Shown here one piece after another: positions 3,413 to 39,059 of a stretch of 39,059 bases of DNA. This stretch comes from a virus: positions 1-39,059 of IMG/VR virus record IMGVR_UViG_3300032241_001347; one strand, written 5' to 3'. Below the pieces are notes generated by a model. It ran no database searches, had not been told where the DNA came from, and saw only the letters and a list, made by a program, of their open reading frames with translations. Positions within the stretch are counted from its first letter, which is position 1. Every line of letters starts with the position of its first letter. Both the position numbers and the translations under genes were made by a program.

Positions 3413-3429
3413 TCAAGACTACCCAAGAC

Positions 3430-5969: not shown

Positions 5970-5970
5970 A

Positions 5971-6500: not shown

Positions 6501-6510
6501 TTTATTCTCC

Positions 6511-7828: not shown

Positions 7829-7841
7829 TTAAATCTCAATT

Positions 7842-10172: not shown

Positions 10173-10181
10173 TGTATGCCT

Positions 10182-10211: not shown

Positions 10212-10620
10212 TATCTATGGTACGTTTGATGGTAAAATCTGCTAGACTATTACTTATTACGGTATCGGGATGGTAATTAAGTATATATTTTGCGTTATCA
10301 ACTAGGACTAATATTACATCATCACCCATATTATCCGTTGCTTCGGCTATCTTTAGTGAATCTACACCAATCAATAATAGAGTATAGCATATTCCTAATG
10401 CTCTTGCAACCGTACAATATGTGTTTTCTACCAACAATTCCCATGGATTGGGCCATTGATTTTGATCATACAAATGTAAATGATTACTGACAAGCGGGGC
10501 ACGTTGCCAAAACTTGTCAGTTTCTATACATTTAATTTCTAGTATGGAATTTTCGATTTGTTTTCTGAGGTCATACCAAGCCTGAAGCCTAGTATCGTAA
10601 TTTAATTGAAATACATTCAT
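10183..10620 (-). CDS. conserved hypothetical phage protein, 145 aa
   Basis: Starts MNVFQLNYDTRLQAWYDLR; the middle carries DKFWQRAPLVSNHLH, then WPNPWELLVENTYCTVARAL and a conserved helical segment (TLLLIGVDSLKIAEA), followed by DDVILVLVDNAKYILNYHPD. This layout recalls a conserved uncharacterised protein next to structural or reductase genes in marine T4-like phages. No signal peptide; a hydrophobic stretch at about 76-85 (ICYTLLLIGV) is too short for a clear membrane helix. Spacing to nrdA is 10 bp, so they are likely co-transcribed, although a promoter-like sequence lies at the junction. Confidence 0.78.
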   Translation of the reverse strand: MNVFQLNYDTRLQAWYDLRKQIENSILEIKCIETDKFWQRAPLVSNHLHLYDQNQWPNPWELLVENTYCTVARALGICYTLLLIGVDSLKIAEATDNMGDDVILVLVDNAKYILNYHPDTVISNSLADFTIKRTIDIDNIKQKLL

Positions 10621-10644
10621 AACAAATGTACTTATCTTTTTAAA

Positions 10645-11355
10645 TTACCACTCTAATTTATCGTTACGTTTTGTACTACGACCTTCTAAGGGACGAGCCT
10701 TTATGGTTGTATCAACTTTGTCAATACTGTTATCATACGCATATAAACCTTGATGACTAATATTAAATAAATCTGCTCTTAACATAATGTCTAATGGAGC
10801 ATTTAATCCATTTTTAATAACATAAGCTATCAGATTTTTTGCCATTGCAGGATCAATTGCATATGCATGTGCACGACAAATAAACAAATAATTAGGACCT
10901 TCACTAGCATGTGGGGGTATGGGATATATTTTCCAACCAAGATTCTTCCACTCATTGCCACCTAAATAAACAATCGTGTTGTAATTATCAATTGTTTCAA
11001 ATTTTTTACACATGATTGCATCATGCTCAAGAATAACGATAGGTCTATCCATTGTAGCACAATGAACCCAAAGACTTATATGACTCAATGCACATGCAAC
11101 TTCACCACGTGTCATATAATGATCAGTAATTTTAAGCATGCTCATTACACTATCATGTTCTAAGTGTTTTGGTGCAACAATTTGATTATCAGAACCAGTG
11201 CCATTGTAGGCATCCCACACTTTAAATGGCATGCCTACATCCATACAACTTTGCTGAGAACGTGCACTATATCGTTCACTATTAGGGTTTCCTCTAACAG
11301 TAATAATATAGGCACTTTCTACTAAAGTATCATTACTACGAAATAATTTTAACAT
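10645..11355 (-). CDS. glycosyltransferase family 25-like protein
   Basis: A 236-aa protein with the GT25 (LPS galactosyltransferase type) pattern: an N-terminal strand SAYIITVRGNPNSERY, the signature GEVACALSHISLW (84-96), and the acidic nucleotide-sugar/metal motif ILEHD (108-112), where most relatives have LEDD. A later YLFICRAHAYAIDP segment corresponds to the conserved acceptor region with A-Y. It would transfer a sugar from a nucleotide donor to a glycan or protein. The ATG shares one base with the stop of the preceding glycosyltransferase-methyltransferase gene, so the two enzymes are made together. Acceptor unknown. Confidence 0.82.
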   Translation of the reverse strand: MLKLFRSNDTLVESAYIITVRGNPNSERYSARSQQSCMDVGMPFKVWDAYNGTGSDNQIVAPKHLEHDSVMSMLKITDHYMTRGEVACALSHISLWVHCATMDRPIVILEHDAIMCKKFETIDNYNTIVYLGGNEWKNLGWKIYPIPPHASEGPNYLFICRAHAYAIDPAMAKNLIAYVIKNGLNAPLDIMLRADLFNISHQGLYAYDNSIDKVDTTIKARPLEGRSTKRNDKLEW

Positions 11356-13115: not shown

Positions 13116-13147
13116 GTTTATTCCTTTTAAAAATATATTTTGTATAT

Positions 13148-13155
13148 TACTTATA
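13148..13155 (-). promoter_or_regulatory. possible T4-like late promoter for the glycosylation genes
   Basis: The minus strand reads TATAAGTA, 7 of 8 matches to TATAAATA, in the 63-bp gap between the giant gene's stop and the 586-aa gene, about 33 nt before its ATG. No terminator hairpin is seen in this gap. Confidence 0.3.
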
Positions 13156-13178
13156 CAGAATAAACGAGCATGAAATTT

Positions 13179-16100
13179 TTATTGGATATATCCAGAGTTG
13201 TTATTGCCAGCAATTACTACTTGACTGATTGTACCGATTGCTACCGGGCTAGTAATGAATGAACTATTGATTGCAGTACCGCCTTGTGAAGTATCATTAC
13301 GTCCCCAAGCATACAATACATTACTTGAGTTAGTTGCAAAACTAATGTCATTACCGGCACTAACTTGTATCCAACTTGTACCTGTACTAATTTGAACTGG
13401 GCTACTTGCACCATACACCGCAGTGATTTGCACTGGAGCACTGCGATTATTTGTATCATTAGTACCTAATACACCTGTAGTGTTATAACCTGTGCCATAT
13501 AGTGTACCATACTTATCTTGTAAGAAGCCACTATACAAGCCAAATGCAACAAAGCTTAGTCCACTAGGTACATTAGTTAGATTGGTTCCAACTTGTACAG
13601 GTGAGCTATAACTTACATTGTTGTTAAGTCCCAATTGTCCATAGTTATTTTGGCCCCAAACCCATGCAGTACCGTCAAATTTAATACCTGCAACTGCGCC
13701 AGATACTGGACCTGAAGTAACTATATTTTTCCATATTGCACCAACCTGTACAGGACTACTTGCATTGGTAGTACTGTTATTTCCTAATTGACCATATCCA
13801 TTGTACCCTAAACCAAATAAGTTACCATCACTTCTTAGTAAATAAATAGTTTGTGTTGAAGCTGCAACTTTACTATAAGTAGCTGGTTTTAATTGTCCAG
13901 GTAATGCACCAAGTTGTATTGGTGAATTAGTTGGAAGGCCATAACCTAATTGACCATATCCATTATATCCCCATCCCCATGCAGTACTATCCAAATGTAG
14001 TCCAACGCTAAAGAGATCGCCCGCAGCAATTTGAATCCAACTATTATCTGAACTCACTTGTACTGGACTACTACGATTAGTAGCTGTTGTATCACCCACT
14101 TGGCTATATACATTATATCCCCAACCAAATAGTGCATATGTTGTTGTAATAGCTAATGTATGACTAAATCCTGCACTTACCTGTGCCCAAGATGTATTGG
14201 ATATATAGCTAGTGAATGGGTTAGGCATTATACTTGTAACAGGATTACCGTTCTTAGTAATAGTATTACCAGCGTTATCATTTGTTACACTAGAAGCACT
14301 ACATATGAATAGTGTAGTATTGGTTATCAATGTTAGTGGACTTGTGGGTGGTGTAAATGTTGAAGTATACACGGCAGTACCTTTTACAATACGAACATTT
14401 GTTAACAAACCACTGAAGTAATTGATTGTAGGATCAGTGCCAACATACAATGTTGCAGCAATACTATAAACAGTATTGTCAATTACAAATGCTTGCATCT
14501 TACCATTGATATATAATTCTGTTACACCAGACAAGCGAACTATTGCTACATGTGTCCATGTATTCAACGGTACTCCACCTGCTGTCGTTGCAGTAAAGAC
14601 TTCTGGATACGTTACTTGTGACCAACTGATAGAACCATTGGCATTATATGTTACGCTCCAAGATCCAGAACTGTATGCACTTGGAATACGTTTAGTGATG
14701 ACACGTGTAGTTGCTGCAACTTTTGGTAAAATCCAAAACTCTAATGTAAAGTTTAATGATCCTAAATCTGTGTTAGTTGTTTGATTTATAGTTAAGTAAT
14801 CTGTACTTCCATTAAATGAAGTATTGTAGATGTTAGTGTTAGATGCATTAGTAATTGTATATCCAACTTGTATAGGTGAACTTTTTGCAATATTAGTGTT
14901 ATCACCTAATTGGCCATATGTATTGTCACCCCATGTGAATAATACGCCATCACTACGAATAGCAGCACTATGAGATGAACCAGCAGTTACTGCGTTCCAA
15001 CTACTACCAACACCTATTTGTATTGGACTCACAACATTTGTAAGATTGTTTGTACCTAATTGACCACTTGTATTTAATCCCCAAGCCCACATTGTACCAT
15101 CACCTTTGATAGCCAATGTATGACTCCAACCTGATGCAATCTGTGCCCATGAATAAGGAATTGTTGCTGGTACAGTACCTGCATAGTTGCCCCATCCAAA
15201 TAATCTGTTATTGATATCTATTGCAAGTGCATGTCTATAACCGGCTGCAATAGATGTCCAACTGCTGGTACCAACTGATTGTGGTATTTGAGCATATGTT
15301 TGCTTAAATGCAGCCATTGTAGTGATGTTAGAGTTGTTTGCACTTCCAGCTGGTAAACCATTTTGATATATTTGACCTGTTGATGTACTTCCCCAACCCC
15401 ATAACAAACCAGTTGTATCTGTAACAATACCATTACTGATACCAGCACTTACTAATGTCCAACTTGATGAACTAATTTGTATTGGCACACTTACATATGT
15501 AGTAATTGAAGTATATTGTGTTGGTACTTGTACTGGGCTACTTTGTGTTATTCTAGTACCTAATTGAGCAGTACTACCTAAAGCAAGTTGTCCATTAGCA
15601 TTATAACCCCATGCATATAATAAACCACCTGTTAATGCTACACTATGGCTACCACCGCCACTTACACTAGACCATGAGCTAGTACTGATTTGTACTGGAC
15701 TACTTCTAGAATAGTTTGTTAAATCACCTACTTGATATGCTGCATTATATCCCCAGGCCCATAAACTAGCATCACTACTACGTATTGCTAATGTATGTGA
15801 TAGACCTGCAGCAATTTGATTCCAAGATCCTGACATAATTTGTGTTGGACTTGTGAACATGGTATATGGAGCATTAGTAAACATGTTCATTGTGTTTAAC
15901 TGTACAGGAGATGAAGTTCCAGCAGGTACATAATTGGTACCTAAACCTAATGCACCGGCTGTATTAGTACCTATAACGTAAGGTAAACCACCATTCATCA
16001 CAACAGTAGCACCATTGCCCATTGCAATACTACCTATTACTGTTGTTAGACTACCACTAGGTACTGATATTTGTACTGGGCTACTGCGATTAGTAGTTGT

Positions 16101-19100
16101 GTTGTCACCTAATTGTCCATTACCATTATAACCCCAACTCCATAATGTGTTATCGCTACGTATAGCTATTGAACCTGGATTATTGGTACTTACAAATATC
16201 CAACTACTTGTGCTAATTTGAGTTGGGCTACTGCGATTAATAATATCATTTGTTCCTAATTGACCATATGTACTATTTTGACCCCAGGCCCATAATGTAC
16301 CATCACTACGTATAGCGACAGTTGTATAATCACTTGTTGTTAATTGTTTCCAACTACTAGAACTAATTTGTGTAATTATGCTACGATTAATAATATCATT
16401 TTGTCCCAATTGACCATATGAGTTATCACCCCAGCCCCATAATGTACCGTCTGTGCGAATCGCTAAACTAAAGCTATTACCAACTGAAATACTTGTCCAG
16501 CTTGATGTACCGATTTGTACGGGTGAACTTACTGTACTAGTACCATAAGGTATTTGTACTGGTGACGATGCTATTACACTATTCAACGCATTTGATATAT
16601 AAGGAGATGTTATACCTAAATATGATGTAGCCAACTGTCCATACTCGTCACTACCTAACATGTATCCATAATTAGTACCACCAACTGATTGAATTAATGC
16701 AGTCAAACTTCCACCTGCACTTACTTGACTCCAGCTACTTGTACCGACTTGTGTTGGACTTGAAATATATCTATAATAATTATCTAAACCAATCTGTACA
16801 GGGAAACTACGATACTGAGTATTAGTGCTATCACCTATCTGACCATAATTGTTAAGACCCCAACCATATAACAATCCTGTACTTGTTATACCATGCATGA
16901 AATAATTGTAATTTGCTACAATTTGAGTCCATGATACTGTTGGATAAGAGTTACTGTTATAGAATGGTGTCAATGATTTTACACTAACCCCTGCACCTAT
17001 ACCAAATCCTACACGATATGGACCAGTATCAATTGCTGACGATGCTTGACCTGTCATGAACAATACATAACCAACTGAAGGGATAGCACTAATATTTGTG
17101 CTGCTAGGTTGTGTTAAAGTTAAAGGACCTGTAGGTGGAGTGAAATTACCTGTATACACTGCAATATTATTTGTAATTCTTAAATTACTTACATATCCAT
17201 AGAAGTTCCAATAATTATATGTTGTACCACTGTAAATACAACCTAAACTATAAGTATTGGTTGTGCTTGGTCTAGCAGTCAGTGTACTTGTACCTGTTAT
17301 CGTCTGTAATACACCATTTACATACAATGATATAGCATTGTTATTTACTGATACTGCGATATGATACCATGTACATACATTCATAACAGTATTACCTGTT
17401 GCAAAGAATTGTGTTGACGATGGATTCAACCAATAAAACTGTAATTGTCCAAGATAGTTTGGACCAAATGACCAATTAGCATTACTAGTTGTATATGTAC
17501 CATCCATAATCATATATGGATAGTAACTAGTAGCGCTACCGCCGCCATTAAATTGTGTTTGATAGACCCAAGCTTCAATGGTAAATGTTGTTGAAGCTAT
17601 AGGTATCATTATATTTGCATTACTTGATGTATATGCTGCGTTTTGATTGGCCGCAAGATTAGCACTAAAATATAAACTATAGCTACTTGAACTAGTAGTT
17701 GATAATGCACCTGGACTAGACACTTGTACCGGCAATGACATATTAGTATTATTACCATTACCTAAACTATAGTTAGCATTATATCCCCATGTATATGCAG
17801 TGCCTGTAGTTGTGAGTGCAGCCGTATATGATTGACCTGCACTTACTTGAGTCCAAGACAATGAAGTAAATGAAGTTGTAGGGAATGGATATAAATTATT
17901 AGATGAAACTGAATATGTTGGTCCATTAACTGATGTAAATGAGAAGAATGCGTTATCTATATAAGTTGGATTCTGTGCAGTTAGCAATACTGTTTGACCA
18001 CTAGTAATTGCAGCACTAGGAGATCCATATACATTTGCACTCTGTGTTGCGGTCAATGGAATAGTACTTGGTGTAAAATTTGCAGTATACACTGGATTAC
18101 CGATTACAACACGTAAATTAGACATTGACATGTTACTACCGCTGTTGCCTAAACCACCGTTATCATATAAACCATTGATTACTAATGTAGTACCTGCAGG
18201 TATTGTAGTAGAAGTATTTACTCCGGACGCAACTAAATTACCATTGACAAATAATCTTACTGTACCAGTATTATCTTTTGTAGCTGCAAGATGATACCAT
18301 ACGTTAGCCGGATATACTGCATTACTACTTAGTGAAATTACATAACCATTAGAACCGTTGCCTTGATTAAATGTAAAATAATTAGTTGACCAGTAAAAAG
18401 CTATTGAATTACCGTATGCTGCGCCATTACCAATTGCCAAAAAGTTTCCTCCACTTGATATAGGTAATACCCAGAATTCAAAACAGAACTGTGTAGATGC
18501 GTTACTAACATTAAAGTTAGGATTAACCATATACAAATAATAACCAGAACTAGTGAAATTCCATACATATGCATTGGTAGTCACAGATGCACTAACCTGT
18601 ACAGGTGAGCTACGTAGTGTGACAGTAGCATCACCTACTTGTCCATAATTATTATTACCCCAACTCCATAGTGTATTATCACTACGAACTGCAACAGTAT
18701 GGCTATCACCTGAACTTACTTGAGTCCAATTTGATAAAGTACCAGGGACTGTTTGTAATGTTAACAAGCTAGTCTGACTTGAAAGTATTGCACTAATATT
18801 TGTGCTACTAGATTGAGAGATTGTTAGCGGTGTGATTGGCACTGTGTATGTACCTGTGTAAACTGCAACACCGTTTACAATACGAACATTACTGATATAA
18901 CCACTCCAGAAACCTGCAGTAGATTGACCAGATTGATATCCAATGTATACTGCTTTTCCACCGTCAGTTATGGTTGCTGTTTTTGCAGCAGTAGCTACTT
19001 GTATACCATTTTGATACAAATACAATGTTGCTGAATTTAATACACCAGCTACATGTACCCATTGATTCAATGGTAATAACGTGTTTGATGCTATATTTTG

Positions 19101-31100: not shown

Positions 31101-34100
31101 AAATGCTTGACCTGCTGTAAAGTTTAATGCACTTGTATTGCTAATTGGGAAACCACCGTAGCCTGCAGTAAACAAATAACTATGTGCACTTTGATTTGAT
31201 AACAAACCACCGGCAACTGCGGTTGGTGAAGAGCGATTGACAATATCATTACTTGCCAATTGTCCATAATTATTATATCCCCATGCATATACTGTGCTAA
31301 TGTTAGATGCAATTGCTACACTATGGCTTCCACCTGCAGCAACTTGAGTCCAACTACTTGCACCTAATAATGTTACCCCAGAGAATGGAGTAGCATATAC
31401 TGCTACGGGTGAGCTTGTTGAAGTTATTGTAAGATTGTTTACACTATTATCTCTGAATACACTATTTTGAGCAGTTAATAATGCTGTACCAAATTGACCA
31501 TTCAATGGACCCGGTGACAAATTGGTTACTGTACCTACATTCGTAATAGCAAATGCATTAACACTACTGTCAATAATAGTTGATGCTTGTCCAACTAGTA
31601 ATATAGTTCCTGAACCAAATGGTCCTATAGTAGAAACTGTTGCACCATTATTTGTAATAGTAAGTGCATTTATACTGTTATCAATAATTGTACTAGATTG
31701 ACCTGTTAACAATACTGTACCACCTGTAATTGCAGCAATATTAGTACCAGCATTTTGTGTTATTGCTAATGGACTTGTCGGGACTACATAAGTACCTGTG
31801 TATATTATATTACCATTATTAATTCTTATATTACTAATATATCCTGTAAAGAATGATGTATTATTGTATGTTTGTCTACCAATACTGCTAGGTAAATTGA
31901 TACCAACTGAAATATTAATAGATCCACTTGCACCTGTACCTGTACCATTTACATACATATACATTGTACTACTACTGCTACTTCTACCAACAGTAACATG
32001 ATTCCAAGTATTTACATATACAGTACCTGATGTAATAGCATTTGTGATTGCAGTTGTGCTAGTAGCATATGCAAAAATAAGAGTTCCACCAGTATTGATA
32101 TATAATTGCCATTCACCAACTGTATATGATCCGCTAGGTCCTGATACAAAGTTGTCAATGATAACCGGTGAATTAGCGAATGTTGTGGGATATACCCAAC
32201 ATTCAATATTGAATGGATTAGTTCCAAATACAAATGCATTACCTGGAACTGTTAAGTACGCTGAAGTACCATTAAACAATATACTATTGCCATTTGTAGG
32301 TGTTACACCTGTTATAGCTCCAATGTTCGTAGTAGCACTTTGTGTAGTTGTTAATGCGTTGCTAGGTACAGTAAAGTTAACTGAGTAAATACCAGTACCA
32401 GAAACTACACGAGCATTTGAAATATATCCTGAGAAAAATTCAGTACCAGATGTTGTGGCACCTACTGCGTATGTTGCAGCTTGAATACTAGTTGAATATG
32501 TTGCGGTTCCATTTTGTTGTATTCCATTTAAGAATACTCTTATAATACCACTAATTCTAGTAACGGCTGCATGAACCCATACATTATTGGGTGTTGTTAC
32601 ATTGGTAGATAATACTGTTGCACTATTTGAATAGAATTCAAGAACACCGTATCTAAAACCCATACTAACCTTACCTGCAACTGTATCTGTACTTCTGTTT
32701 GTTATGATATCACAAAACGCAGGTTGTGCAGTTTGATATACCCAAGCTTCCATTGTAAAATCTGCTGTACCAATAGCTTGAATAGGAACAAAAGTAGTTG
32801 GTGTAGTTATGTATTGATTACTACCATTAAACGTCAAATAATAGTTATTAGTAGGTGCATTATATGTTATTGCATTAATGTTAGTTCCACTAGTTTGTGT
32901 AGTAGTCAATGGTGATGTAGGTGGTGTGAATGTACCAGTATAAACACCATAACCAATAACATATCTAACATTGGTTATATAACCATTGAAATAACTAATA
33001 GGTCCATTAAGATCACCTATACCAAAGTATGTACCACCATAGAAATAAGTATCAGGATATGTGATTACAGAAACACCATTGATGTATAAATTTATTACAT
33101 TTGCATTTCTTACTAAGGCTACATGATACCATTGATTGATATTAAAATTATATGTAGATGTATATATTGTACCGTTGGCATATATTTGCCAATTATTATA
33201 GAATGTAGATACTGCAAGAGTTGTCAATGCGGTTCCATAACCGCCTGAACCACCATAAACAGTATATGACTGACTTGATACGGTTGCAGTGGCATAATTG
33301 TTCATATATACAGTAGCAGTACTTGGATTAAATCCAGTTATGATAGTACCTGCAGGTATATATGTTCCTGTAATTGATGCGCCCACTGTTATATAATATG
33401 CACTTTGTGATACACCAGTAAGATAATTCACATTTACTGTTGCATTAGCTGTAAATGTTATAATGGTAGTGCCAAATAAACCTTGACTAGAGTTTTGGAA
33501 TATACCCATTATACCATTGTTGGTTATAGGATATACCCATGCTTCAATTGTAAAATTACCACTACCAAGAGTTAATATATTATTACTACCACTTACTGCT
33601 ACAGTTTGACTTAATGCACTATTAAAGAAAATACTGTATGCTGAGTAGTTTGAAATTCCTGTAGCACCGATTGGTATTGGATAACTACGATTAGTAGTAG
33701 TACCGTCACCTAATTGACCTTGAGCATTATATCCCCAAGTCCATAATGTGTTATTAGAATCTATTGCAAGTGTATGACTTCCACCTGCACTAACTTGTGA
33801 CCAACTATTTGATAAAGCAAATACTTGTATAGGACTAAAATTACTATATGTATTTGATTGACCTAATTGTCCTACATTGTTATTACCCCAACTCCATAGT
33901 GTACCATCACTACGTATAGCAGCACTATGGTAATCACCGGCAGCTACTTGACTCCAGCTATAACCTACACCAATTTGAACTGGACTACTGTATTGACCTA
34001 CACTTACTTGTACAGGTGAACTACGAGATGTAACAGTACCGTCACCTAATTGACCGTAACCATTGTAACCCCATAGATACATTATACCATTAGCATCAAG

Positions 34101-37100
34101 TTGTACTGATTGTGATGTACCTATTGTATTAACTTTTAAACCAGCCCATGAAGTTGATGCACCTATTTGTACAGGACTACTACGTGAAATTAAATTGCCT
34201 ATACCTAATTGACCATAATTATTAAAGCCCCATGCCCACAATGTACCATCTGCACGAACAGCCATTGTATGACTATCACCGGCTGTTACACTTAACCAAG
34301 AAAGATTTGTATAGAATGGTTGTGGATAAGTTACCATTGCAGCTGATCCACTAGGTATCAATTGATATGTATTAGTACTGTTATCTAGTAATGTACTGTT
34401 TTGTAATGTTAATAGTATTGTTCCACTGACTGCTAGTAAAGGAGCAGTAGGAACAGTAAAGTTACTTTGATAAACAGAAGTATCTAAATTGCCTTGTTCC
34501 CAACGCAAATTACTAATATAACCTTTAAAATAATTATAACTACCGAAAGTAGTATGACCAATATACAATTGAGTTGTTGAAGTATATGTACTCCATACGG
34601 TACCAATTGGGAATGTATTTTGCGGTGATTGTGCAACTAAATTACCATTAATGAATAAACTCAATATTGAACCCGACCATGTTGCAGCAAGATGTGTCCA
34701 TGTACTTAATGGTATTGTACTGTTTGTTGTTGAACTTATAATTCCAAACCAAGCAGTTCCATTATAATATCCTATCCATACATATTGCCCTGTATCAACT
34801 GTTCCAATTGCACTACCAAATCCAAATGTGATTGGGATTTGACCAGGATTATTAGTACTTACAATTGCACCACCGTTATATGCAGTTGGATATACCCAAG
34901 CTTCAATAGTAAATGGAGTTGTTGAAGTAGCAAACTGCCCCAACACACTACTATTAATAGTTACATAATCAGTTGAACCGTTTAATGCTAAACTATATGC
35001 ATTAGCTTGAATAACAGGATTCAATACACCAGTACCAATTTGTACAGGGCTACTACGTGAAATAGTATCATTTGTTCCTAGTTCGCCATCATTGTTATAA
35101 CCCCATGACCACAATGTACCGTCAATGCGCAAACCTACTGCAAAAAGTGTTCCACATGCAATTTGTGTCCAGCTAAAACCTACACCTACTTGTACAGGTG
35201 AGCTATATGAATTTGTATTATTTTGTCCTAATTGACCATATCCATTATATCCCCAACCCCATAGTGTACCATCAGTACGAATTGCCATTGCATATAACCA
35301 GCCACCATATACATTTTTATATTTTGCAGGACCTTGAATTACTGGTTGAGCGGCATATCTGTTCTGCGTATTACCTGTACCTAATTCACCTGAAGTATTA
35401 GTACCCCATACAAACAAATAACCATTGTTATCTATTGCATATGCAGATGCACTTACAACCCCTGCACTAGATCCTGCAACTGTTGATGCCACCTGAGACC
35501 AATTGCTTGCGTTACCTATTTGTATTGGACTATTTGATGATATACCAATTGAATTACCCCAACCCCATAGTGTACCGTCTGTACGAATTGCCATTGTACC
35601 GTAATAATTTGTTGCGACACTTGTCCAACTATAATTACCAACTACTTGTTTTGGACTATAATATGTATTTGTATCATTTGTTCCCAATTGACCATATCCA
35701 TTATATCCCCAAGCCCATAATGTATAATCACTACGTAAACCTACAGTAAAATACCAACCAACTGAAACTTGAATCCAAGATTCTAATTTTCCAGCAACAA
35801 GATAACCACTGTTGTTGTTTAGTCCCCAACCCCACATTGTGTTATCACTACGAATAGCAAGTGTATGACTTCCACCTACTGCAACATTTTTCCAAGATAG
35901 ATTACCAACTTGTACCGGACTACTGCGGTTAGTTGTTGATATATCACCAACTTGACCATAACTATTATTACCCCAACCAAATAGTCTACCGTCACTACGA
36001 ATAGCCATTGAATGACTACCTGAGTTTTTATTAACCGCTATTTGTGTCCAAGAGAATGTTGTGTTTGGTTGTGCTAGTTGACCAAATGTATTATCACCCC
36101 ATCCATATAATACTTTAAAATAATTCAATGCTACTACGTGATTTGCACCAGCACTAACTTGACTCCAACTACTGTTACCGATAAGACCAATCTGTACAGG
36201 TGAACTACGTGAGTAATTTGTCATTGACAAATCACCTAATTGACCATTGGTGTTAAGACCCCATGTAAATAATAAACCATCACCACGAATAGCAACTGTA
36301 TAGCTTGGGCCTGCACTTACTGTCAACCAACTACTAGTACCTATTTGTACTTGTGAACTACGTGATATGATATCTGTTGTTCCCAATTGACCCCATGAAT
36401 TACTACCCCACATCCATAATGTACCGTCACCGCGTATGGCAGCAGAATGATCCCATCCTACTGCAATTTGAGAGAATGATGATAAACTGATTTGTACAGG
36501 TGAACTACGACTTATGTTTGTATTGTCACCCAATTGTCCCCAGTTGTTTAATCCCCATACAAATAATGCACCATCACTACGAATAGCAAGTGTGTGATTA
36601 CCTGTTGCAATTTTTGACCATGAGTATTGTACTAATCCACCTAACTCACTAAACGAGTTATCACCCCATGCCCATAAGCTACCATCACTACGTATAGCAG
36701 TTGTGTGACTTGAAGCGGGAGCAACTTGAACCCAACTGTTTGCAAAAATACCATTACCAACAATTGTGGGAGAACCTGAACTTGTAATACTATTATTACC
36801 TAACTGTCCGTAATCATTTCTGCCCCATGCCCACAATGTGCCGTCTGACCTAACACCAAATGTATTGTTTGCACCAGTAAACTGATTTAAGAAAAACTCA
36901 TTGTATGTTCCAAATGAATATGTTGTAAATTGTACGGGTGATGGAGTAGTAAGGCCAGGACCTTGACCGTAATTGTTAGCTCCAGCATAAAAAATTCTAT
37001 TGTCAGGTCTTATCAATACAGTATGATCTTGTCCTGCAGTAACACCTGTCCATGAGTAGTTAACCTGAGTAGCAGCGTTTGCCAATGCATTTGACTGATA

Positions 37101-39059
37101 ACCCCAACCAAATAAATTACCTGTTTTAGTTACACCAAATGTAATTGGATTAGTACCACTGGTCAATAAATTAGCACCAATTGAATTCCATTTATAAGCA
37201 CCAATTTGAATTGGACTATTATAACTTGTTGCATTATTAATACCTAATTGATACGAAGTATTCAATCCCCAACCAAATAATACATTATCTACACGTATTG
37301 CATATGTTGCAAACTGTTGTGCATATACCTGTGTCCAACTACTATTACCTACAATTGTAGGTGCGCTACGAGATGTAGAATCACCCAAACCTAATTGTCC
37401 GTTAGTGTTTAATCCCCATGCAAATAATTTACCGTCATAACGAATAGCAAAACTAGTTTCTTGTCCTGCATTTACTGATGTCCAGCTTTGTGAACTAACT
37501 TGTACAGGACTACTTCTATTTGTAGTAGAACCGTCCCCTACCTCACCGCTAGCATTATATCCAGTTGCCCACAAATATCCTGTACTATCAATCATTATTG
37601 TATGATAGATACTTGTTGCTATTTTACTCCATGAATTACCAATACCAATTTGTGTGGGAGCTGATCTAGGTAATGTATCGTATGTTCCTAATTGACCGTA
37701 ATCATTACGACCCCATGTCCACATTGTACCATCATTACGCACACCGGCTGAACTAGCCCATGTACCATCACCGTATGCACTAATACTTACCCAACTTTGG
37801 CTTCCTAATTGTACTGGACTACTACGTGTAGCTAGGTCACCTAAACCTAATTGACCGTAATTGTTTTGGCCCCATACAAACAACGCACCATCAGTACGCA
37901 ATGCCAATATATGAGTTCCACCGTTAATTATTTGAGTCCAACTATTATTAGGACCAGTGTATGAACCAAATCCTAATTCACCGTATGTGTTATCACCCCA
38001 TGTTTGTAATTGCTTATTGGTATTAAGTGCCATAGAGAAATTCAATCCTGCACTTATTTGTGTATAACTATTACCAATGCCTACTTGTACTGGACTACTT
38101 CTACTGATAAAAGTACCGTCACCAATTTGACCTGCATTATTTTGTCCCCAGGCCCATAGTGTACTATCACTACGTATTGCCAACACATGGCTTTGTCCTG
38201 CACTAATTGCACTCCATGAACTAGTACCTACTTGTATGGGACTTAATACTGAATTACCAGTACCAACTTGTGTTGGACTGCTACGATTAATAGTATCACT
38301 TTGACCCAACTGACCATAGTTATTATAACCCCATATATACATTGAGTTACCTGCAACACCAGCCATATAACTATAACCTGCACTAACTTGACTCCAGCTT
38401 AATAGTCCAAGTTGTACTGGATTACTACTATTAACTGTTGAATTGTTACCTATTTGTCCATAGTTGTTTTGACCCCAAGTCCACAAACTACCATCACTAC
38501 GTATTGCGATAGTAGTATCAAATCCAGCACTAACACTATTCCAACTAAAATTAGTAACTATAACTGGACTAGATAAAGTTACAGTTGCGTTATTACCTAA
38601 TTGTCCTACGTTATTAGTGCCCCAAGCATACAATAATCCATTGCCATCAAGAGCCATTGCATGAGAAACACCCATGGAAATTTTGCTCCATATATTTGAT
38701 CCTATTTGTATTGGACTACTACGTGATTGTAAATCACCTGTACCTAATTGTGAGTAACTGTTATATCCCACAGTCCACAATGATTTATCATATCCCAAGA
38801 ACATCGCTTGAATATTGTTTGCACTAACTGCTGTCCAAAGACCAGGTCCAGCAGTAACCAATACAGGACTACTACAACTTATAGTATTAAACTGACCTAA
38901 TTGTCCATAGTTGTTCAATCCCCAGCTATATAATTGATATAAGTTGTTAATTGCATAAGAAGATTCTCCCGTATCAGGTGTTTTTGCAATGTATATCCAA
39001 CTAGTACCTTGATTGACGCCAATTTGTGTAGGGCTGGATCTATTAGAAGTAGTGTAATC
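13179..39059 (-). CDS. giant RCC1-repeat / LamG-lectin protein, at least 8,626 aa (5' partial)
   Basis: One frame is open from the window edge (39059) to TAA at 13179-13181; there is no start codon in context, since an internal TTG at 38918 sits in the middle of a repeat, so the N-terminus is beyond the window. The sequence is built from about 79 RCC1-type repeats counted by their LWxWGxNxxGQLG core, each followed by a RSSPVQVG strand and a SWTQVSAGxxHTxAIRSDG strand, with 18 LamG-3-type lectin domains (FTIEAWVYP ... GYISNLRIVxGxAVYTGTF). Composition is rich in Ser, Thr, Asn, Gly, Tyr and Trp, and low in charge and Cys, as in secreted adhesins. No signal peptide, peptidase, collagen or chaperone domain is seen; the C-terminus ends inside the last repeat. 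Likely a virion-attached fibre or adhesin binding glycans; the location in the particle is inferred. Confidence 0.85.
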   Translation of the reverse strand, partial: DYTTSNRSSPTQIGVNQGTSWIYIAKTPDTGESSYAINNLYQLYSWGLNNYGQLGQFNTISCSSPVLVTAGPGLWTAVSANNIQAMFLGYDKSLWTVGYNSYSQLGTGDLQSRSSPIQIGSNIWSKISMGVSHAMALDGNGLLYAWGTNNVGQLGNNATVTLSSPVIVTNFSWNSVSAGFDTTIAIRSDGSLWTWGQNNYGQIGNNSTVNSSNPVQLGLLSWSQVSAGYSYMAGVAGNSMYIWGYNNYGQLGQSDTINRSSPTQVGTGNSVLSPIQVGTSSWSAISAGQSHVLAIRSDSTLWAWGQNNAGQIGDGTFISRSSPVQVGIGNSYTQISAGLNFSMALNTNKQLQTWGDNTYGELGFGSYTGPNNSWTQIINGGTHILALRTDGALFVWGQNNYGQLGLGDLATRSSPVQLGSQSWVSISAYGDGTWASSAGVRNDGTMWTWGRNDYGQLGTYDTLPRSAPTQIGIGNSWSKIATSIYHTIMIDSTGYLWATGYNASGEVGDGSTTNRSSPVQVSSQSWTSVNAGQETSFAIRYDGKLFAWGLNTNGQLGLGDSTSRSAPTIVGNSSWTQVYAQQFATYAIRVDNVLFGWGLNTSYQLGINNATSYNSPIQIGAYKWNSIGANLLTSGTNPITFGVTKTGNLFGWGYQSNALANAATQVNYSWTGVTAGQDHTVLIRPDNRIFYAGANNYGQGPGLTTPSPVQFTTYSFGTYNEFFLNQFTGANNTFGVRSDGTLWAWGRNDYGQLGNNSITSSGSPTIVGNGIFANSWVQVAPASSHTTAIRSDGSLWAWGDNSFSELGGLVQYSWSKIATGNHTLAIRSDGALFVWGLNNWGQLGDNTNISRSSPVQISLSSFSQIAVGWDHSAAIRGDGTLWMWGSNSWGQLGTTDIISRSSQVQIGTSSWLTVSAGPSYTVAIRGDGLLFTWGLNTNGQLGDLSMTNYSRSSPVQIGLIGNSSWSQVSAGANHVVALNYFKVLYGWGDNTFGQLAQPNTTFSWTQIAVNKNSGSHSMAIRSDGRLFGWGNNSYGQVGDISTTNRSSPVQVGNLSWKNVAVGGSHTLAIRSDNTMWGWGLNNNSGYLVAGKLESWIQVSVGWYFTVGLRSDYTLWAWGYNGYGQLGTNDTNTYYSPKQVVGNYSWTSVATNYYGTMAIRTDGTLWGWGNSIGISSNSPIQIGNASNWSQVASTVAGSSAGVVSASAYAIDNNGYLFVWGTNTSGELGTGNTQNRYAAQPVIQGPAKYKNVYGGWLYAMAIRTDGTLWGWGYNGYGQLGQNNTNSYSSPVQVGVGFSWTQIACGTLFAVGLRIDGTLWSWGYNNDGELGTNDTISRSSPVQIGTGVLNPVIQANAYSLALNGSTDYVTINSSVLGQFATSTTPFTIEAWVYPTAYNGGAIVSTNNPGQIPITFGFGSAIGTVDTGQYVWIGYYNGTAWFGIISSTTNSTIPLSTWTHLAATWSGSILSLFINGNLVAQSPQNTFPIGTVWSTYTSTTQLYIGHTTFGSYNYFKGYISNLRWEQGNLDTSVYQSNFTVPTAPLLAVSGTILLTLQNSTLLDNSTNTYQLIPSGSAAMVTYPQPFYTNLSWLSVTAGDSHTMAVRADGTLWAWGFNNYGQLGIGNLISRSSPVQIGASTSWAGLKVNTIGTSQSVQLDANGIMYLWGYNGYGQLGDGTVTSRSSPVQVSVGQYSSPVQIGVGYSWSQVAAGDYHSAAIRSDGTLWSWGNNNVGQLGQSNTYSNFSPIQVFALSNSWSQVSAGGSHTLAIDSNNTLWTWGYNAQGQLGDGTTTNRSYPIPIGATGISNYSAYSIFFNSALSQTVAVSGSNNILTLGSGNFTIEAWVYPITNNGIMGIFQNSSQGLFGTTIITFTANATVNVNYLTGVSQSAYYITVGASITGTYIPAGTIITGFNPSTATVYMNNYATATVSSQSYTVYGGSGGYGTALTTLAVSTFYNNWQIYANGTIYTSTYNFNINQWYHVALVRNANVINLYINGVSVITYPDTYFYGGTYFGIGDLNGPISYFNGYITNVRYVIGYGVYTGTFTPPTSPLTTTQTSGTNINAITYNAPTNNYYLTFNGSNQYITTPTTFVPIQAIGTADFTMEAWVYQTAQPAFCDIITNRSTDTVAGKVSMGFRYGVLEFYSNSATVLSTNVTTPNNVWVHAAVTRISGIIRVFLNGIQQNGTATYSTSIQAATYAVGATTSGTEFFSGYISNARVVSGTGIYSVNFTVPSNALTTTQSATTNIGAITGVTPTNGNSILFNGTSAYLTVPGNAFVFGTNPFNIECWVYPTTFANSPVIIDNFVSGPSGSYTVGEWQLYINTGGTLIFAYATSTTAITNAITSGTVYVNTWNHVTVGRSSSSSTMYMYVNGTGTGASGSINISVGINLPSSIGRQTYNNTSFFTGYISNIRINNGNIIYTGTYVVPTSPLAITQNAGTNIAAITGGTVLLTGQSSTIIDNSINALTITNNGATVSTIGPFGSGTILLVGQASTIIDSSVNAFAITNVGTVTNLSPGPLNGQFGTALLTAQNSVFRDNSVNNLTITSTSSPVAVYATPFSGVTLLGASSWTQVAAGGSHSVAIASNISTVYAWGYNNYGQLASNDIVNRSSPTAVAGGLLSNQSAHSYLFTAGYGGFPISNTSALNFTAGQAFTIEMWVYPTVANNNTYFFNWGTYKQAYPSEAVVTIGYTGATIYISGGSNTTSTSYALSYPSSVTLSANTWYHIALVRTAANLTTVYLNGVGGTPVTVAGAAQPLSARYDLASPNGMWFGVNTTNQTSFSPATYTGYISNFRYTQGTAVYTANFTVPTSPLATTQTANANGNPSAAIASGVNLLTFDTATITQLTSDNIGWVLVSGFVGTLESYAFPNSFTGVTYASGVGLSATFISAGQYHTIAYSTANSLLAWGMNTTAQLGDGTQANRSSPVQVTSAQNTLSNTNAYSTSLNWGYLGTTAVPANFGFNNFTIESWIFFPILPAYNINLMSNIGQYDNNGWTLALNTNNYFVFGFQGTGTTTQSGVNSSGSWTYSITTSTAPTVNAWTHVAVVRNNTTITLFVNGTSAGTVAVAGSLEQGLNNGFYIGYYPYMGGQLGNNTIPASGPLAIATGAGSNVYMGNFYYSNVRLVNGVAVYTGTFTVPTSPLTAIQNSGTNISAILTGQTTLLTCQNSTIVDNSAYGYQIFLGGNPARTTLLSPFSSYVTVVQSSWTTVNAGSSMTMGIRSDGTLWGWGYNNVGQLGEITNFNRSTMIQLGVGQGTNVNQTLLSPVQISTKSWTQVSAGNQFNVGIDSNNLLWGWGYNGYGQLGDGTIINRSSPVQIGSSSWTQVNATYSNTVALRSDGGLFVWGSNTYGMINDDTIYSRSSPVQVGNATLTNTGNYSVLFGSSFLPTTNSMDYFGVSLIAPFASNFGSNNFTIEFWAFPVNLPTAAWIPMVSIGTAGSIGAEIRIGQNINSAGLGFLVPNSGTDIYAGYGVMGINQWTHLALVRSSASSTILYSNGVALGTQAVNYTFPNIGWIRIGADPYADGTFNGYISNLRIVLGQALYTPTSVTAGTQYFNPPTQTLTRNTVGTGGTNVATAITGQVTLLTCQSNTFVDNSIYNNPLTLTKNPQISSFNPFNNNYYSGQFNGSTNYLSMTSGTSLQLSGQTFTIEAWIYLTSYTPVYGSNYWVNILNTYAGSTSGYEVDITGTASSYTALQFISKTSGTATNTVSKAFTFSLSTWYHIAITASGTTMTMYVNGTSIGTATITTWTDTTTMYIGSTNIASAQYWFPGFISNLRIVKGVAVYTGTFTLPSNQLTAIQSSGTNISALTYGQTQLLTLQTGGIVDLSYNQTPITNNNNVLTNNYIVPPVFLNVNNYTGYSSYTSIGAGINNALTIRNDNTIWGWGYNWYGQLGNGNIYNQNFLYQSVTISPTQVYTAYPKLQPNRLSNTSSWSVIGAGLSHTLAIRTDGTLWGWGYNGVGQLANTTTQPALTFAQPTYGSSGYFNVALTASNALWVWGYGLWGNLGFINAAGSISTPQLSTYGNSWSQLSAGDYHVLAIKPSDKSLWVWGYNNAGQLGDTTTTSRSSPVQLHTGSWNQVYAGVSWSSAIRNDNAVFVWGANTYGELGDNTNVSKSSPVMISAQLYPSAPNVANQYSTYFNGSTGYLTVPTNTVFLFGTGDYTVEAWLFPTSSNATMTFFGGGVANTPVFSITALTAIVVNPYGTAAVNGSQGCTQPYVFNTYTWYHVAFTRQSNITRIFVNGGQIGLNVNDPTSYVQGAMGIGATQAASQFFPGYISNLRVIKGQALYTATFTVPTSALTNNTVGTSGTGVASSITGTVALLTCQNFTPYDNSGNSFVISMFGVTYGTYAYSPFAYPYYPTFYNNNPNAGGPLLSGLPSNSLGYSQQYNFATGGSNVATNYNYDYLSINQTSVLNIGTTGTFNFTFEWWMFTPAFTYQMGLFGKRANESAYAPFVIYVNTSGQIIVSMSTTGTTFTPSALTSTISMQTYIWYHVAVVRNGTAVNIYLNGISVASGTINSGALMTNTNQMVIGIDSSAWSADHPYSGFLTNIRVIDNQALYTANFNVNITPITSPTTIVNTGAGVAGSITGSVVLLTAQNNTFIDNSSNALTLIQNHTLTTSTRTPFTSLYNTSWKQLVSGKSHTVALRSDGLLFTWGYNPDGELGDGSVINRSSPVQIPSGSWTQISTQDYTVFAINTVGQLWGWGLQNNGQLGDNTNTPRSSPVQIGVGSSWNSVYSGSSFSVAIRSDGTLWGWGLNGYGQLGLNTTNGMSSPVQISASSYTQVMTGASHVVVQRSDGTLWAWGYNTDGELGDGTTVARSSPVQVISGLIYTSSPVQISTSSWIAVSAGDSHSVALRSDYTIWGWGSNMLGQLGITGSTLSTAVIGGGASFTAFINGDGRLWTWGNNGNGQLGQLNTSTYSSPAVIGFYSWTSLSVGQSHMLAIRSDSTLWAWGYNGVGQLGTNDTVSRSSPVLVNTSTWSQVATYNSHTLAIRSDGTLWGWGSNNVNQLSLSWAQIQVGFDGHINALRSDGTLWGWGYNNVGQIGNNNTTNYSVPQAVYAANYNNLKVIQFSVGGSHTAAITSDNRLWTWGSNSYGQLGVNGGNQTIPTNISGSWTQVTAGLYHTLGIKTDGSVWAWGNNTYGQVSDITYNNNDGISAQLNYRSGPVLVAPLGTSLPNPLSYSVFFNGVSDWVQFPLNATTQLSTFDFTVECWVYIPFKYQSSQCIWSNYATQANAASMSLWATNSSITATGYALWINSNWYIATTANVIYAQWTHLAVVRNVGNVNIYVNGVAAVGGGPASLPSVSVNGNGSYWTIGNDGTSVTTSSFFGFISNFRIIKGQAIYGNGPLNIASMDNYFIPSTTPLTTSTVGATGSGVANAITGTVIILTLQNNYFVDNSINNFQISTIPQGSSGSAFYVYTPSPTIRAWSPFYTSRWNASKVIAGNSYSMVIDTTNKLWVMGNNQLGQLGTNDTVNRYQLTPWNGSYTYSTTGYSLDFNGSNYLTATASTFTFGAANFTIEFWCYVTRYNTTMGILGKRASESAFGPFNITMSSTGAIIVNMSNNGTTYAVSALTSNIVVPLFTWTHFAVTRVSTTVYMYMNGILMANTGTISGALTTNIASLSIGIDSNTPATNNPFNGLISNMRLTDGQALYTGTTANINYFTYTPIAPFTASTVGVVGAGVAGSLTGIVQLLIGQNATVIDNSTNAYTFTNVSNVTTLNSVPFANLYTYTTDPTSWTQISASFTGHNLAIKSNGTLWVWGNNFAAELGLGDQFNRSSPVQLGTSSWTSVSAGANYSTAIDINNKLWAWGDNTYIQTGIQNTQYLSWTTVSLGGSAKHSDGTLWSWGDNRYGQLGYSYSNTTNLISRSSPVQINTGLGLPTNQASVSWSQISTSISHSLAIRSDGTLWSWGSNSWGQLGTGDFGIRYAPTQIAVNYNISNPTAYSTFFNGPNGDYLTVTNTTFVLANSYQPFTIEGWVYPITNNGGAILTEDVASTINFTLAFGSVIGNTDTVANYVWFGSWNGSQWINSVISPFQIPLNQWSHIAGVFNGYSSQLYVNGILVATQLSTSGWLSGTASSAIYIGRRWDTSGNPYFNGYLSNVRMVIGVAVYTGNFTVPTSPLTVTQSAGTNISAITGTQTKLLVCQNGGFYLDNSTNAYQVTRSGTPYMTAFTPFTSTVTVTALSNWTQVYAGSSHSAALRSDGSLWTWGLNNAGQLGIGDTNQKYTPQMVGATTLSASTAYSVWFSPFTNGYIQIANSTPLTLAGISWTIEAWVYPVNFTAASIIYSKRVASSATTEIQLYLLVTTGYISAYNGTTTYSSTSAPLLNTWSHIAYTYDGTTIYFYLNGVFVYSSAVTITARVTPITIGTELSGSFNQLYMSNLRVTNGQRLYTGTTLYTQYFTPSLTTPLTTSTVGATGSGAASSITGTVALLTLQNNTFKDNSSNNYTLTPVSVVTSAFTPFYGVTPSGQSWTQVGVGASNMAAVRSDNSLWAWGYNGQGQLGTGDILPRTQANPGTGNSLPTDASSYSASNILTRNGTTFMTSVTQYGITTLATPFATPGSTGFSSYFDGTTGYYTIPTSTQLNLSSATAWTIEAWVYWTGINASAQILEKDGVFSTSNVQYGLQMNGSGYVALYIGSGNGVTSIQNIASNTLLPLNQWVHVAGVLNSATLYLYQNGIQVATAAKTATITDGGKAVYIGYQSGQSTAGFWSGYISNVRIVNGVAVYTGTYTVPITPLTISQSSSTNISAILSSQTSLLTLQTVPGTLSNWTQVSSGDSHTVAVRSDNTLWSWGNNNYGQVGDATVTLRSSPVQVSASVTTNAYVWNFTSSGYYLYMVNPNFNVSNASTQFCFEFWVLPISSGGNFLAIGNGAAYGNSIAFYWSTNYFTFNQGNGSNGYVISLSSNAVYPANVWYHLAATKDNTGTVRLFVNGNLVASGVNTSTTIPAGTTLVINGLYDNGGLGNSGSNMSMSNLRVVIGNPVYTANFTPSTIPLTATQSANVYGSPSAAITSGQTVLLTAQNPTYIDNAFFSFTSVNGPTYSVSSNNLYPFPTTSFTSLSWTQVSAGQSYTAALTTTGTAYTWGYNANYSLGNGNNTNMSLPVQVSSPGALSTTSSSSYSLYFSANLAANQNAAYTSSNANIMIPIASTTFTIEAWVYQTQFNGGGSATSYYPYMIMDGTYTTSNANWSFGPNYLGQLQFYWLNPSSTQFFATGNTVMNVCTWYHIAVSVNNNAISLYVNGVLQTITGTSTLTARPSTTNTYSLGCIYSGTTYNYWNFYGYVSNLRITNNIAVYTGNFTPPTGPLTLTQPSSTNISAIPSVGYVLFMTGQASSAIDTGPYRVGFGIGAGVSVKSLTPFYNSNSYPTVSWTQIVANYNYFMHGITSTGLLYGWGLNNYGQIGDSTNTQYRSFPVQIGLDNYYRYISSPTQVGTSSWSQVSAGGSLTALIQSVGGTNYGYMLGSDEYGQLATSYLGITSPYISNALNSVIASSPVQIPYGTSTVSSPVQIGTSSWTSISVGNSFSLAIRTDGTLWGWGDNSYGQLGQNDIINRSIITQISSSSWKQLTTSDYTTVAIRSDGTLWAWGQNSTYGQLGTNDIINRSSPTQISTSSWIFVSTNNPGSIAIRSDNTLWSWGYNGNGQLGDNTTTNRSSPVQISVPSGSLTTVIGSIAMGNGATVVMNGGLPYVIGTNTAGALGLGTNYVPAGTSSPVQLNTMNMFTNAPYTMFTSPTQIMSGSWNQIAAGLSHTLAIRSSDASLWAWGYNAAYQVGDLTNYSRSSPVQISTSSWSSVSGGGSHSVALTGGLLYAWGYNANGQLALGSTAQLGTRITQSSPVQVPTQYTSITTYVSVPIQISSSSWTLVSAGISNGIVTDTTGLLWGWGSTSTGQIYQNGLPAGSANNSNITTMAAFKQTYAQIPQSVGTSSWTSIAAGYRHALAIDINNRLFGWGNYAGTVPATIPYSWAQIASGWSHTLAIKGDGTMWAWGLNTSGQLGTNNLTNVVSPIQIGVGSSWNAVTAGSSHSAAIRSDGVLFTWGDNTYGQLGDNTNIAKSSPIQVGYTITNASNTNIYNTSFNGSTDYLTINQTTNTDLGSLNFTLEFWILPKVAATTRVITKRIPSAYSSGSWSVTYNANGSISWSQVTYPEVFTATTAGGVPLNTWTHVAIVRLSGVTELYINGKMQAFVIDNTVYSIAATLYVGTDPTINYFSGLLTNVRIVKGTAVYTSTFTPPTSPLTLITNTTLFICSASSVTNDNAGNTITKNGNPVTSIMPNPFTSYISNTSWAQVSAGFSHTLAITTTYALFGWGYNVYSQVGDTTATNRSSPVQVSSDNSWIQIAAGDLFSVGLHLDSTAWGWGYNGYGQLGYGLPTNSPIQLGALPGQLKPATYSKVAASTQTIYLLRSDGNLFGLGYNGYGQLGNNSTTNASSPVQVGAIWKNIVTSGPVSGAVAGIKFDGTAWVWGQNNYGQLGLNNNVSYSSPVQVGTNLTNVPSGLSFVAFGLYSGFLQDKYGTLYGTGYNTTGVLGTNDTNNRSAPVQITAVYGASSPVQISTGTSWIQVSAGNDISFATNSSNVLYAWGRNDTSQGGTAINSSFITSPVAIGTISQVVIAGNNNSGYIQ
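13182..14189 (-). repeat. C-terminal RCC1 run of 6 repeats
   Basis: Cores LFGWGYNVYSQVG to LYAWGRNDTSQGG. The protein stops 34 residues after the last core (ending NNNSGYIQ), in the middle of the repeat, with no distinct C-terminal domain. Confidence 0.85.
14190..14869 (-). other. LamG domain 18
   Basis: YNTSFNGSTDYLTINQT, FTLEFWILPK (near 14740), TWTHVAIVRLSGVTELYING and NVRIVKGTAVYTSTF. The trailing linker is shortened (TLFICSASSVTNDNAGN). Confidence 0.8.
14870..16929 (-). repeat. RCC1 run of about 12 repeats
   Basis: Cores from LYGWGLNNYGQIG to LFTWGDNTYGQLG. Several blades are degenerate (GYMLGSDEYGQLA, PYVIGTNTAGALG, LFGWGNYAG), and tandem extra SSPVQ strands occur near 16550 and 15530. 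Confidence 0.8.
16930..21229 (-). other. alternating array: LamG 13 to 17 each separated by one RCC1 repeat
   Basis: LamG motifs FTIEGWVYP (near 21110), WTIEAWVYP (near 20220), WTIEAWVYW (near 19250), FCFEFWVLP (near 18480) and FTIEAWVYQT (near 17575). Single RCC1 cores sit between them at about 20410, 19560, 18660 and 17780, giving a near-regular unit of about 850 bp. A stray linker fragment (NILTRNGTTFMTSVTQYG, near 19420) precedes LamG 15. Confidence 0.8.
21230..23539 (-). other. LamG 11, one RCC1 repeat, LamG 12, four RCC1 repeats
   Basis: LamG 11 (FTVECWVYIP, near 23415), RCC1 core LWVMGNNQLGQLG (near 22665), LamG 12 (FTIEFWCYVT, near 22480), then cores LWVWGNNFAAELG to LWSWGSNSWGQLG (21230-21860). 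Confidence 0.75.
23540..25179 (-). repeat. RCC1 run of about 11 repeats
   Basis: Cores from LFTWGYNPDGELG to VWAWGNNTYGQVS. One repeat is shortened to core plus SLSWAQIQVG, losing its SSPVQ strand (near 24030). Confidence 0.8.
25180..27489 (-). other. five RCC1 repeats, then tandem LamG 9 and 10
   Basis: RCC1 cores IWGWGYNWYGQLG to VFVWGANTYGELG (26690-27490), LamG 9 (YTVEAWLFPT, near 26565) and LamG 10 (FTFEWWMFTP, near 25775). The joint between the two lectins holds an unusual Tyr/Asn/Pro-rich stretch (PYYPTFYNNNPNAGGP, near 25970). Confidence 0.75.
27490..29469 (-). other. three RCC1 repeats, then tandem LamG 7 and 8
   Basis: RCC1 cores LWGWGYNNVGQLG, LWGWGYNGYGQLG and LFVWGSNTYGMI (28950-29465), then LamG 7 (FTIEFWAFPV, near 28815) and LamG 8 (FTIEAWIYLT, near 28105) joined only by the linker. 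Confidence 0.75.
29470..31379 (-). other. LamG domains 5 and 6 alternating with single RCC1 repeats
   Basis: One RCC1 repeat (VYAWGYNNYGQLA, near 31270), LamG 5 (FTIEMWVYP, near 31090), one RCC1 repeat (LLAWGMNTTAQLG, near 30340), then LamG 6 (FTIESWIFFP, near 30155). The linker after LamG 5 is divergent (VNLLTFDTATITQL). Confidence 0.75.
31380..33655 (-). other. tandem LamG domains 2-4, with a nested insertion and three orphan linkers
   Basis: Three lectin domains follow one another without RCC1 repeats: FTIEAWVYPITNNG (near 33540), FTMEAWVYQT (near 32745) and FNIECWVYP (near 32200). Domain 2 is split by about 80 residues (33240-33470) containing ASITGTYIPAGTIITGF, a module type seen in other phage structural proteins. 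After domain 4, three copies of the linker (LLTGQSSTIIDNS, LLVGQASTIIDSS, LLTAQNSVFRDNS) follow in tandem with no LamG between them (about 31400-31735). Confidence 0.75.
33660..34314 (-). repeat. RCC1 run of 4 repeats
   Basis: Cores LWAWGFNNYGQLG, MYLWGYNGYGQLG, LWSWGNNNVGQLG and LWTWGYNAQGQLG between LamG 1 and LamG 2. Confidence 0.8.
34315..35030 (-). other. LamG domain 1 with trailing linker
   Basis: Starts at YSLALNGSTDYVTINSS, has FTIEAWVYPTAYNGG (near 34900), WTHLAATWSGSILSLFINGN and GYISNLRWEQG. It ends with the linker pattern TILLTLQNSTLLDNSTNTYQ before the next SW strand of an RCC1 repeat. Confidence 0.8.
35040..39059 (-). repeat. N-terminal RCC1 run (about 27 repeats)
   Basis: Uninterrupted RCC1-type repeats of about 50 codons (about 150 bp). 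Cores include LWTWGQNNYGQIG and LWMWGSNSWGQLG. Several have an extra tandem SSPVQIG strand (for example NSVLSPIQVGTSSW near 38240). Some repeats are degenerate, such as IFYAGANNYGQG (near 36975) and LWGWGNSIG (near 35560). At the DNA level the segment around the core (rc of ccataatgtaccatcactac) recurs dozens of times with small changes. Confidence 0.85.

Follow-up and report, generated by a model that had tools for sequence, protein, structure and literature searches.

Proteins made of RCC1 repeats have been described in several phages. Synechococcus phage S-SRM01 encodes gp335, gp337 and gp344 (~340–410 aa), which adjoin baseplate wedge and long-tail-fibre genes, and the jumbo coliphage phAPEC6 encodes RCC1-like proteins of 30–42 kDa that have been detected in virions by mass spectrometry (PMC7247149). 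These proteins comprise one propeller each, are encoded by several separate genes and show no LamG domain. The phage RCC1 families PHROG 7220, 4219 and 16766 have been placed in the category 'DNA, RNA and nucleotide metabolism'; what the eukaryotic protein is called is the probable reason. LamG domains are known from tail structural proteins of cyanophages and T4-like phages (PHROG 13163, 8510 and 701), with profiles of up to 6,136 positions (PHROG 701).

Outside phages, tandem RCC1 arrays occur in bacterial multi-propeller proteins, for example in Chryseobacterium, where we observed proteins of ~2,400 aa with ~27 repeats beside a second one of ~1,200 aa (L131, L133 and L135). The long tail fibre of phage T4 (gp34–gp37) is encoded by multiple genes that follow the baseplate genes, and a gene for an assembly chaperone lies close by. 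T4 fibres have trimeric, β-structured shafts. Giant open reading frames of Omnitrophota (e.g. 39,678 aa; PMC10066038) are extremely long, and a part in adhesion or at the surface has been proposed for them.

Here we analyse a phage gene that joins 78 repeats of the same family as the S-SRM01 and phAPEC6 proteins with 18 LamG domains in one chain, in contrast to these single-propeller proteins. It shares its LamG family and, in its relatives, its genome region with the LamG tail structural proteins, its tandem RCC1 arrays with the bacterial proteins, and its extreme length and proposed surface role with the Omnitrophota frames, which are bacterial and much longer. We found no description of this type of RCC1/LamG giant protein in the literature. 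Among the RCC1/LamG structural proteins of phages, the giant can be regarded as an extreme variant made of known parts; the new points are its scale, the mixing of RCC1 with LamG and the multi-gene organization of the probable fibre.

Results and discussion

A giant gene kept open

The window, that is the whole stretch of DNA analysed, is an isolated viral record of 39,059 bases whose edge falls within the giant gene. The original prediction of a 25.9-kb open frame, made without a strand, is confirmed on the minus strand: the gene occupies positions 13179–39059 and comprises 8,626 codons and a stop (~916 kDa), with the stop codon at 13179–13181 and no further stop up to the window edge. The N-terminus of the protein is missing, lying to the right of 39059, and 8,626 aa is a lower bound. 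Given the gene's own base composition, 8,626 stop-free codons would arise by chance with a probability of ~10^-281, and each of the remaining five frames contains 443 to 1,014 stops across the gene. GC content by codon position (0.40/0.52/0.19) is even along the whole length. The earlier proposal that the long product is maintained is thus upheld.

At the DNA level, the repeats are 60–80% alike, and Tandem Repeats Finder reported no strong array within the gene. Assembly is therefore unlikely to have collapsed or expanded identical repeats, and a tandem-duplication artefact was rejected on the same grounds. The diverged repeats and the lack of a strong array show that the gene is old, diverged and kept open.

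RCC1 repeats alternate with LamG domains

Domain content was assessed by a Pfam search of ten slices spanning the giant gene, as the original prediction had advised, and by a model built from the window's own repeats. RCC1, RCC1_2 and Laminin_G_3 matches exceeded the Pfam curated cut-offs, which assigns the repeats to the RCC1 families (PF00415/PF13540) and the other domains to the LamG/concanavalin-A-like lectin family (PF13385). Apart from one sub-threshold match, Pfam found only RCC1-type and LamG-type families in the protein, and the RCC1_2 profile alone gave 72 matches along the gene. The repeat-built model counts 78 RCC1 repeats and 18 full LamG domains, very close to the ~79 and 18 read from the sequence beforehand. 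Mean identity is 43% among the RCC1 repeats and 30% among the LamG domains. The latter bears on the earlier description of the protein as multivalent: the 18 LamG domains are borne out, but 'many-specific' may be the better term at a mean identity of only 30%.

The RCC1 repeats form runs of 27, 4, 1, 1, 3, 5, 11, 1, 4, 1, 1, 1, 1, 11 and 6; past residue 1,343, runs of 1–11 repeats alternate with single, double and triple LamG domains. From the N-terminal side, the layout is as follows (support from the repeat model unless further evidence is given).

35031–39011, minus strand: 27 RCC1 repeats (residues 17–1343); Pfam, repeat model, AlphaFold2 model of residues 74–860
34257–35021, minus strand: LamG domain 1; Pfam, repeat model
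33663–34313, minus strand: 4 RCC1 repeats
31611–33665, minus strand: LamG domains 2–4, in tandem
31215–31364, minus strand: 1 RCC1 repeat
30372–31214, minus strand: LamG domain 5
30270–30416, minus strand: 1 RCC1 repeat
29403–30266, minus strand: LamG domain 6
28956–29459, minus strand: 3 RCC1 repeats
27432–28958, minus strand: LamG domains 7–8
26694–27488, minus strand: 5 RCC1 repeats
25116–26663, minus strand: LamG domains 9–10
23589–25169, minus strand: 11 RCC1 repeats
22734–23534, minus strand: LamG domain 11
22605–22730, minus strand: 1 RCC1 repeat
21807–22601, minus strand: LamG domain 12
21243–21845, minus strand: 4 RCC1 repeats
20442–21242, minus strand: LamG domain 13
20343–20492, minus strand: 1 RCC1 repeat
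19584–20345, minus strand: LamG domain 14
19503–19637, minus strand: 1 RCC1 repeat
18750–19355, minus strand: LamG domain 15
18591–18737, minus strand: 1 RCC1 repeat
17814–18602, minus strand: LamG domain 16
17718–17867, minus strand: 1 RCC1 repeat
16896–17702, minus strand: LamG domain 17
14862–16943, minus strand: 11 RCC1 repeats
14148–14861, minus strand: LamG domain 18
13230–14204, minus strand: 6 RCC1 repeats and C-terminal tail; repeat model, alignment to relatives

A polymorphic toxin or bacterial adhesin was also considered and rejected: the C-terminal slice holds only RCC1 and LamG families, and the context is that of a phage.

Relatives carry the giants in a T4-like tail-fibre locus

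Using the methyltransferase gene next to the giant gene as bait, we found eight contigs, most of them with the same locus. In the relatives, the genomes around this locus are T4-like and encode baseplate, capsid and replication proteins, so that the giant is indeed phage-encoded, as originally predicted. A host-genome origin was rejected, the bacterial RCC1 proteins found being cellular, at most about 2,400 aa long and negative in a search with the LamG motif. The T4-like major capsid protein of one relative (G005, a 144-kb contig) is nearest to those of Methylophilales, Stenotrophomonas and Pelagibacter phages (64–65%), a similarity that does not fix the host.

The region that is a single frame in the window is divided into two or three genes in the relatives, which encode giants of 4,821 and 5,123 aa in G001, of 3,286, 3,105 and 5,117 aa in G006 and its near-twin G003, of at least 4,982 and 4,363 aa in G004, and of 4,224 and 2,277 aa in G005. 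These proteins are reproduced across independent assemblies at >99.8% identity. Strong LamG domains number 3 in G001, 2 in G006, 10 in G004 and 0 in G005, so that the window's 18 is the highest number.

The junction of the last two giant genes in G001, G004 and G006 spans only a few bases and comes after GQLGDG(T/S); the downstream giant begins with the rest of the blade or its linker. Stop and start overlap there (ATGA or TAATG) at the same repeat position, and coupled translation of the giants at these junctions is possible. The window site most like the junction between gene A and gene B of the relatives is tentatively placed at about residue 1675 (nt ~34035), the scores showing no clear separation; neither a stop nor an overlapping start remains at this site.

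A T4-like tail-fibre locus, with the giants following baseplate wedge and fibre-assembly genes, was found in G001, G005 and G006; the window ends inside the giant gene. More specifically, the giants of G001 are preceded, in this order, by proteins of 1,873, 1,321, 1,063, 174 and 178 aa. The 1,873-aa protein contains seven LamG domains and belongs to families annotated as baseplate wedge or virion structural, whereas the 1,321-aa protein has no family match. Over its whole length, the 1,063-aa protein matches PHROG 5838, a cyanophage virion structural/fibre family (E = 0; 46–50% identity to cyanophage proteins), the 174-aa protein is tail-fibre-like and the 178-aa protein is tail-assembly-chaperone-like (PF16778). 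In G005, baseplate hub and wedge homologues lie just upstream of the giants. In Pelagibacter phage Mosig, the corresponding region holds genes for baseplate gp8, a tail assembly chaperone and tail fibres.

The original prediction had also suggested looking upstream for a tail-attachment domain. No large one is seen in the relatives: their first giant starts ~20 residues before the first RCC1 half-blade.

As a side observation, the 1,873-aa protein of G001 (L100:1554–7175) has no RCC1 repeats, unlike the giants in the same tail region, so that a single phage has LamG domains in two distinct structural proteins.

The giants diverge quickly under constraint

Between phages, the giants are 34–44% identical (that is, they differ at 56–66%), whereas most flanking genes are 70–90% identical, with the exception of a 753-aa protein (48–60%) and a small protein without assigned function (61–74%). 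Outside its last ~200 residues, the window's giant shows no collinear homology with those of the relatives; these last residues are in register with the C-termini of the relatives' last giant at ~40% identity. The dN/dS of the giants is about 0.2–0.4, with dS near saturation, which indicates that synonymous changes are favoured and that the sequence is still constrained.

G003 (L107–L109) and G006 (L103–L106) are otherwise nearly identical, but their last giant differs by exactly one 42-residue RCC1 repeat, in frame. This could be a natural length change or a difference in assembly. Fast divergence, constraint and the one-repeat change together form the profile expected of a host-recognition fibre or adhesin.

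Propeller fold and number of blades

Sequence searches with the RCC1 array matched UVR8 (5e-41), HERC2 and RCC1. An AlphaFold2 model of residues 74–860 (787 residues) has a mean pLDDT of 65, with stretches of 80–90, and a pTM of 0.46. When this model was compared with the PDB, the best matches were RCC1-family propellers (RCC1/HERC2/UVR8), with E-values to 4e-32 and TM-scores by target up to ~0.66, the rmsd often exceeding 10 Å. The modelled array may resemble RCC1, UVR8 and HERC2 in fold; the model does not establish closed rings. The LamG-containing C-terminus gave a poor model (mean pLDDT 49; alignment of 7 sequences).

Single RCC1 proteins of other phages start with a half-blade, carry mostly seven WG cores spaced by ~50 residues and end with the complementary closing half-blade. 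In the giants of the relatives, short linkers usually lack the SPVQ strand, and an over-long linker lies exactly seven cores past a short one in 8 cases against 2.6 expected by chance in G001, 8 against 3.1 in G006 and 5 against 2.1 in G004. Because long linkers recur at this distance above chance, we read the giants of these three phages, each taken separately, as probably composed of seven-blade units.

The window's giant has too few short or long linkers to show such spacing. The earlier estimate of roughly eleven propellers agrees with 78 being about 11 × 7 and with the seven-blade register of G001, G006 and G004, but no register appears in the window's own protein and LamG domains split its runs. 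Seven-bladed folding of this protein is putative. If all propellers are seven-bladed, many LamG domains must sit between the blades of one propeller.

A probable host-recognition fibre

Synteny, the pattern of divergence and the tail-assembly-chaperone gene adjoining the giants in relatives lead us to propose that the giant gene probably encodes a host-recognition tail fibre (or a baseplate-anchored adhesin) of a T4-like myovirus, a role that the original prediction had offered as inference. The scaffold would be a chain of RCC1-type β-propellers, and eighteen different LamG (concanavalin-A-like) domains set between the blades would serve as glycan-binding modules, in keeping with the lectin-like nature of these families. 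In relatives, the fibre would be assembled from giant polypeptides of 2.3–5.1 kaa encoded by two or three genes in a row, which join just past the 'GQLGDGT' blade end; in the window's phage, at least 8.6 kaa would form one chain. Such a protein would be part of the virion and attach to the baseplate.

If this role is right, the giants resemble the T4 long tail fibre in being multi-gene, in following the baseplate genes and in having an assembly chaperone gene nearby. They differ in that no T4-type or other classical trimeric fibre shaft, tip or chaperone(-cleaved) domain was seen in the slices of the giant protein with Pfam or PHROGs, which counts against a fibre. So do two further points: the baseplate and chaperone genes upstream of the giants are known from relatives and fall beyond the contig edge in the window, and LamG domains are not confined to fibres but are found in other structural proteins too, while RCC1 propellers bind many kinds of partner.

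The lectin-like domains and the length would also suit a flexible coat or decoration of the virion, borne on its head, neck or tail and sticking to mucus, polysaccharide or particles rather than recognizing a receptor, and the LamG parts match PHROG 'virion structural protein' families; with the relatives' giants placed after baseplate wedge and tail-assembly-chaperone genes, we consider a coat unlikely. Less probable again is a protein that is produced during infection and secreted or placed on the cell surface, for instance to alter the host surface or to block other phages, and that is absent from the virion. It would fit the neighbouring genes for glycosyltransferase family 25 and methyltransferase proteins and the multi-propeller RCC1 proteins that bacteria too possess (up to ~2,400 aa), but the locus is structural in relatives, and the first 40 residues of their first giant, read by eye, contain no clear secretion signal.

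The RCC1 repeats might instead condense or organise phage DNA, as the authors of the phAPEC6 study suggested for its RCC1-like proteins, noting that eukaryotic RCC1 binds chromatin (PMC7247149); the PHROG families matched here are likewise named or filed under nucleic acid metabolism. That proposal was based on the domain name, however, and because the giant protein is slightly acidic rather than basic (pI 6.06; Lys+Arg 2.6%), carries 18 lectin-like domains and belongs to the tail locus in relatives, where giants diverge far faster than most neighbours, we judge such a role highly improbable. We attach equally little weight to the single long frame being an artefact of assembly or annotation that hides two or three shorter genes. 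All four distinct relatives that are complete or nearly so do have two or three genes here, and three slices of the window's giant gene, used as queries, found no second, close assembly of it. Gene fusion, however, requires a precise in-frame loss of the stop, and assembly errors usually break frames; the best candidate junction retains neither stop nor overlapping start, the repeats are too diverged for easy mis-assembly and the relatives' giants agree between independent assemblies.

Within the tail-fibre reading, a more doubtful step is that one uninterrupted polypeptide of at least 0.9 MDa makes up the whole mature fibre, as a monomer in which some eleven RCC1 propellers or more are chained together and eighteen different lectins lie between blades. 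We hold this to be possible rather than likely. If true, this architecture would be unlike that of trimeric β-structured fibres: it could recognize many host glycans and be lengthened or shortened blade by blade, and the chain would be among the longest phage polypeptides known.

Phage RCC1 proteins have been catalogued under DNA metabolism by name; in the giant family they belong to a tail-fibre locus. The relatives' loci, of 6.5–11.5 thousand residues each, illustrate how far the RCC1 design can grow. The family makes it possible to test a fibre design based on β-propellers and exchangeable lectins, which would bear on changes of host range in T4-like phages and on the useful size limit of a single phage protein. 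It also provides natural variants for the study of fibre evolution, which differ in gene number (one, two or three), in lectin number (0–18) and by a length change of one repeat.

Other genes of the window and its relatives

Downstream of the giant gene, the window contains two neighbours on the same strand.

11355–13115, minus strand: protein with a methyltransferase domain; first half glycosyltransferase-like in appearance (putative)
10645–11355, minus strand: glycosyltransferase family 25 protein; conserved neighbour

The methyltransferase-domain gene always lies immediately downstream of the giants in close relatives. Further downstream, on the same strand, follow genes for both ribonucleotide reductase subunits (NrdA assigned by similarity to phage proteins), glutaredoxin, a PAAR-motif protein, the 753-aa protein and a cell wall hydrolase. 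The far end of the window carries seven tRNA genes (Arg, Leu, Phe, His, Met, Arg and Gln; 233–1151, minus strand).

The 753-aa protein (3430–5691, minus strand), encoded between the PAAR-motif and cell-wall-hydrolase genes, had no match in Pfam, PHROG or GenBank phages. Relatives of it occur on 20 viral contigs at 45–98% identity and, where the sequence ends were compared, have an LCNCDCW motif in common. In G006, a run of genes at ~2,300–13,200 (L103) encodes proteins with Cys motifs that look radical SAM-like by eye.
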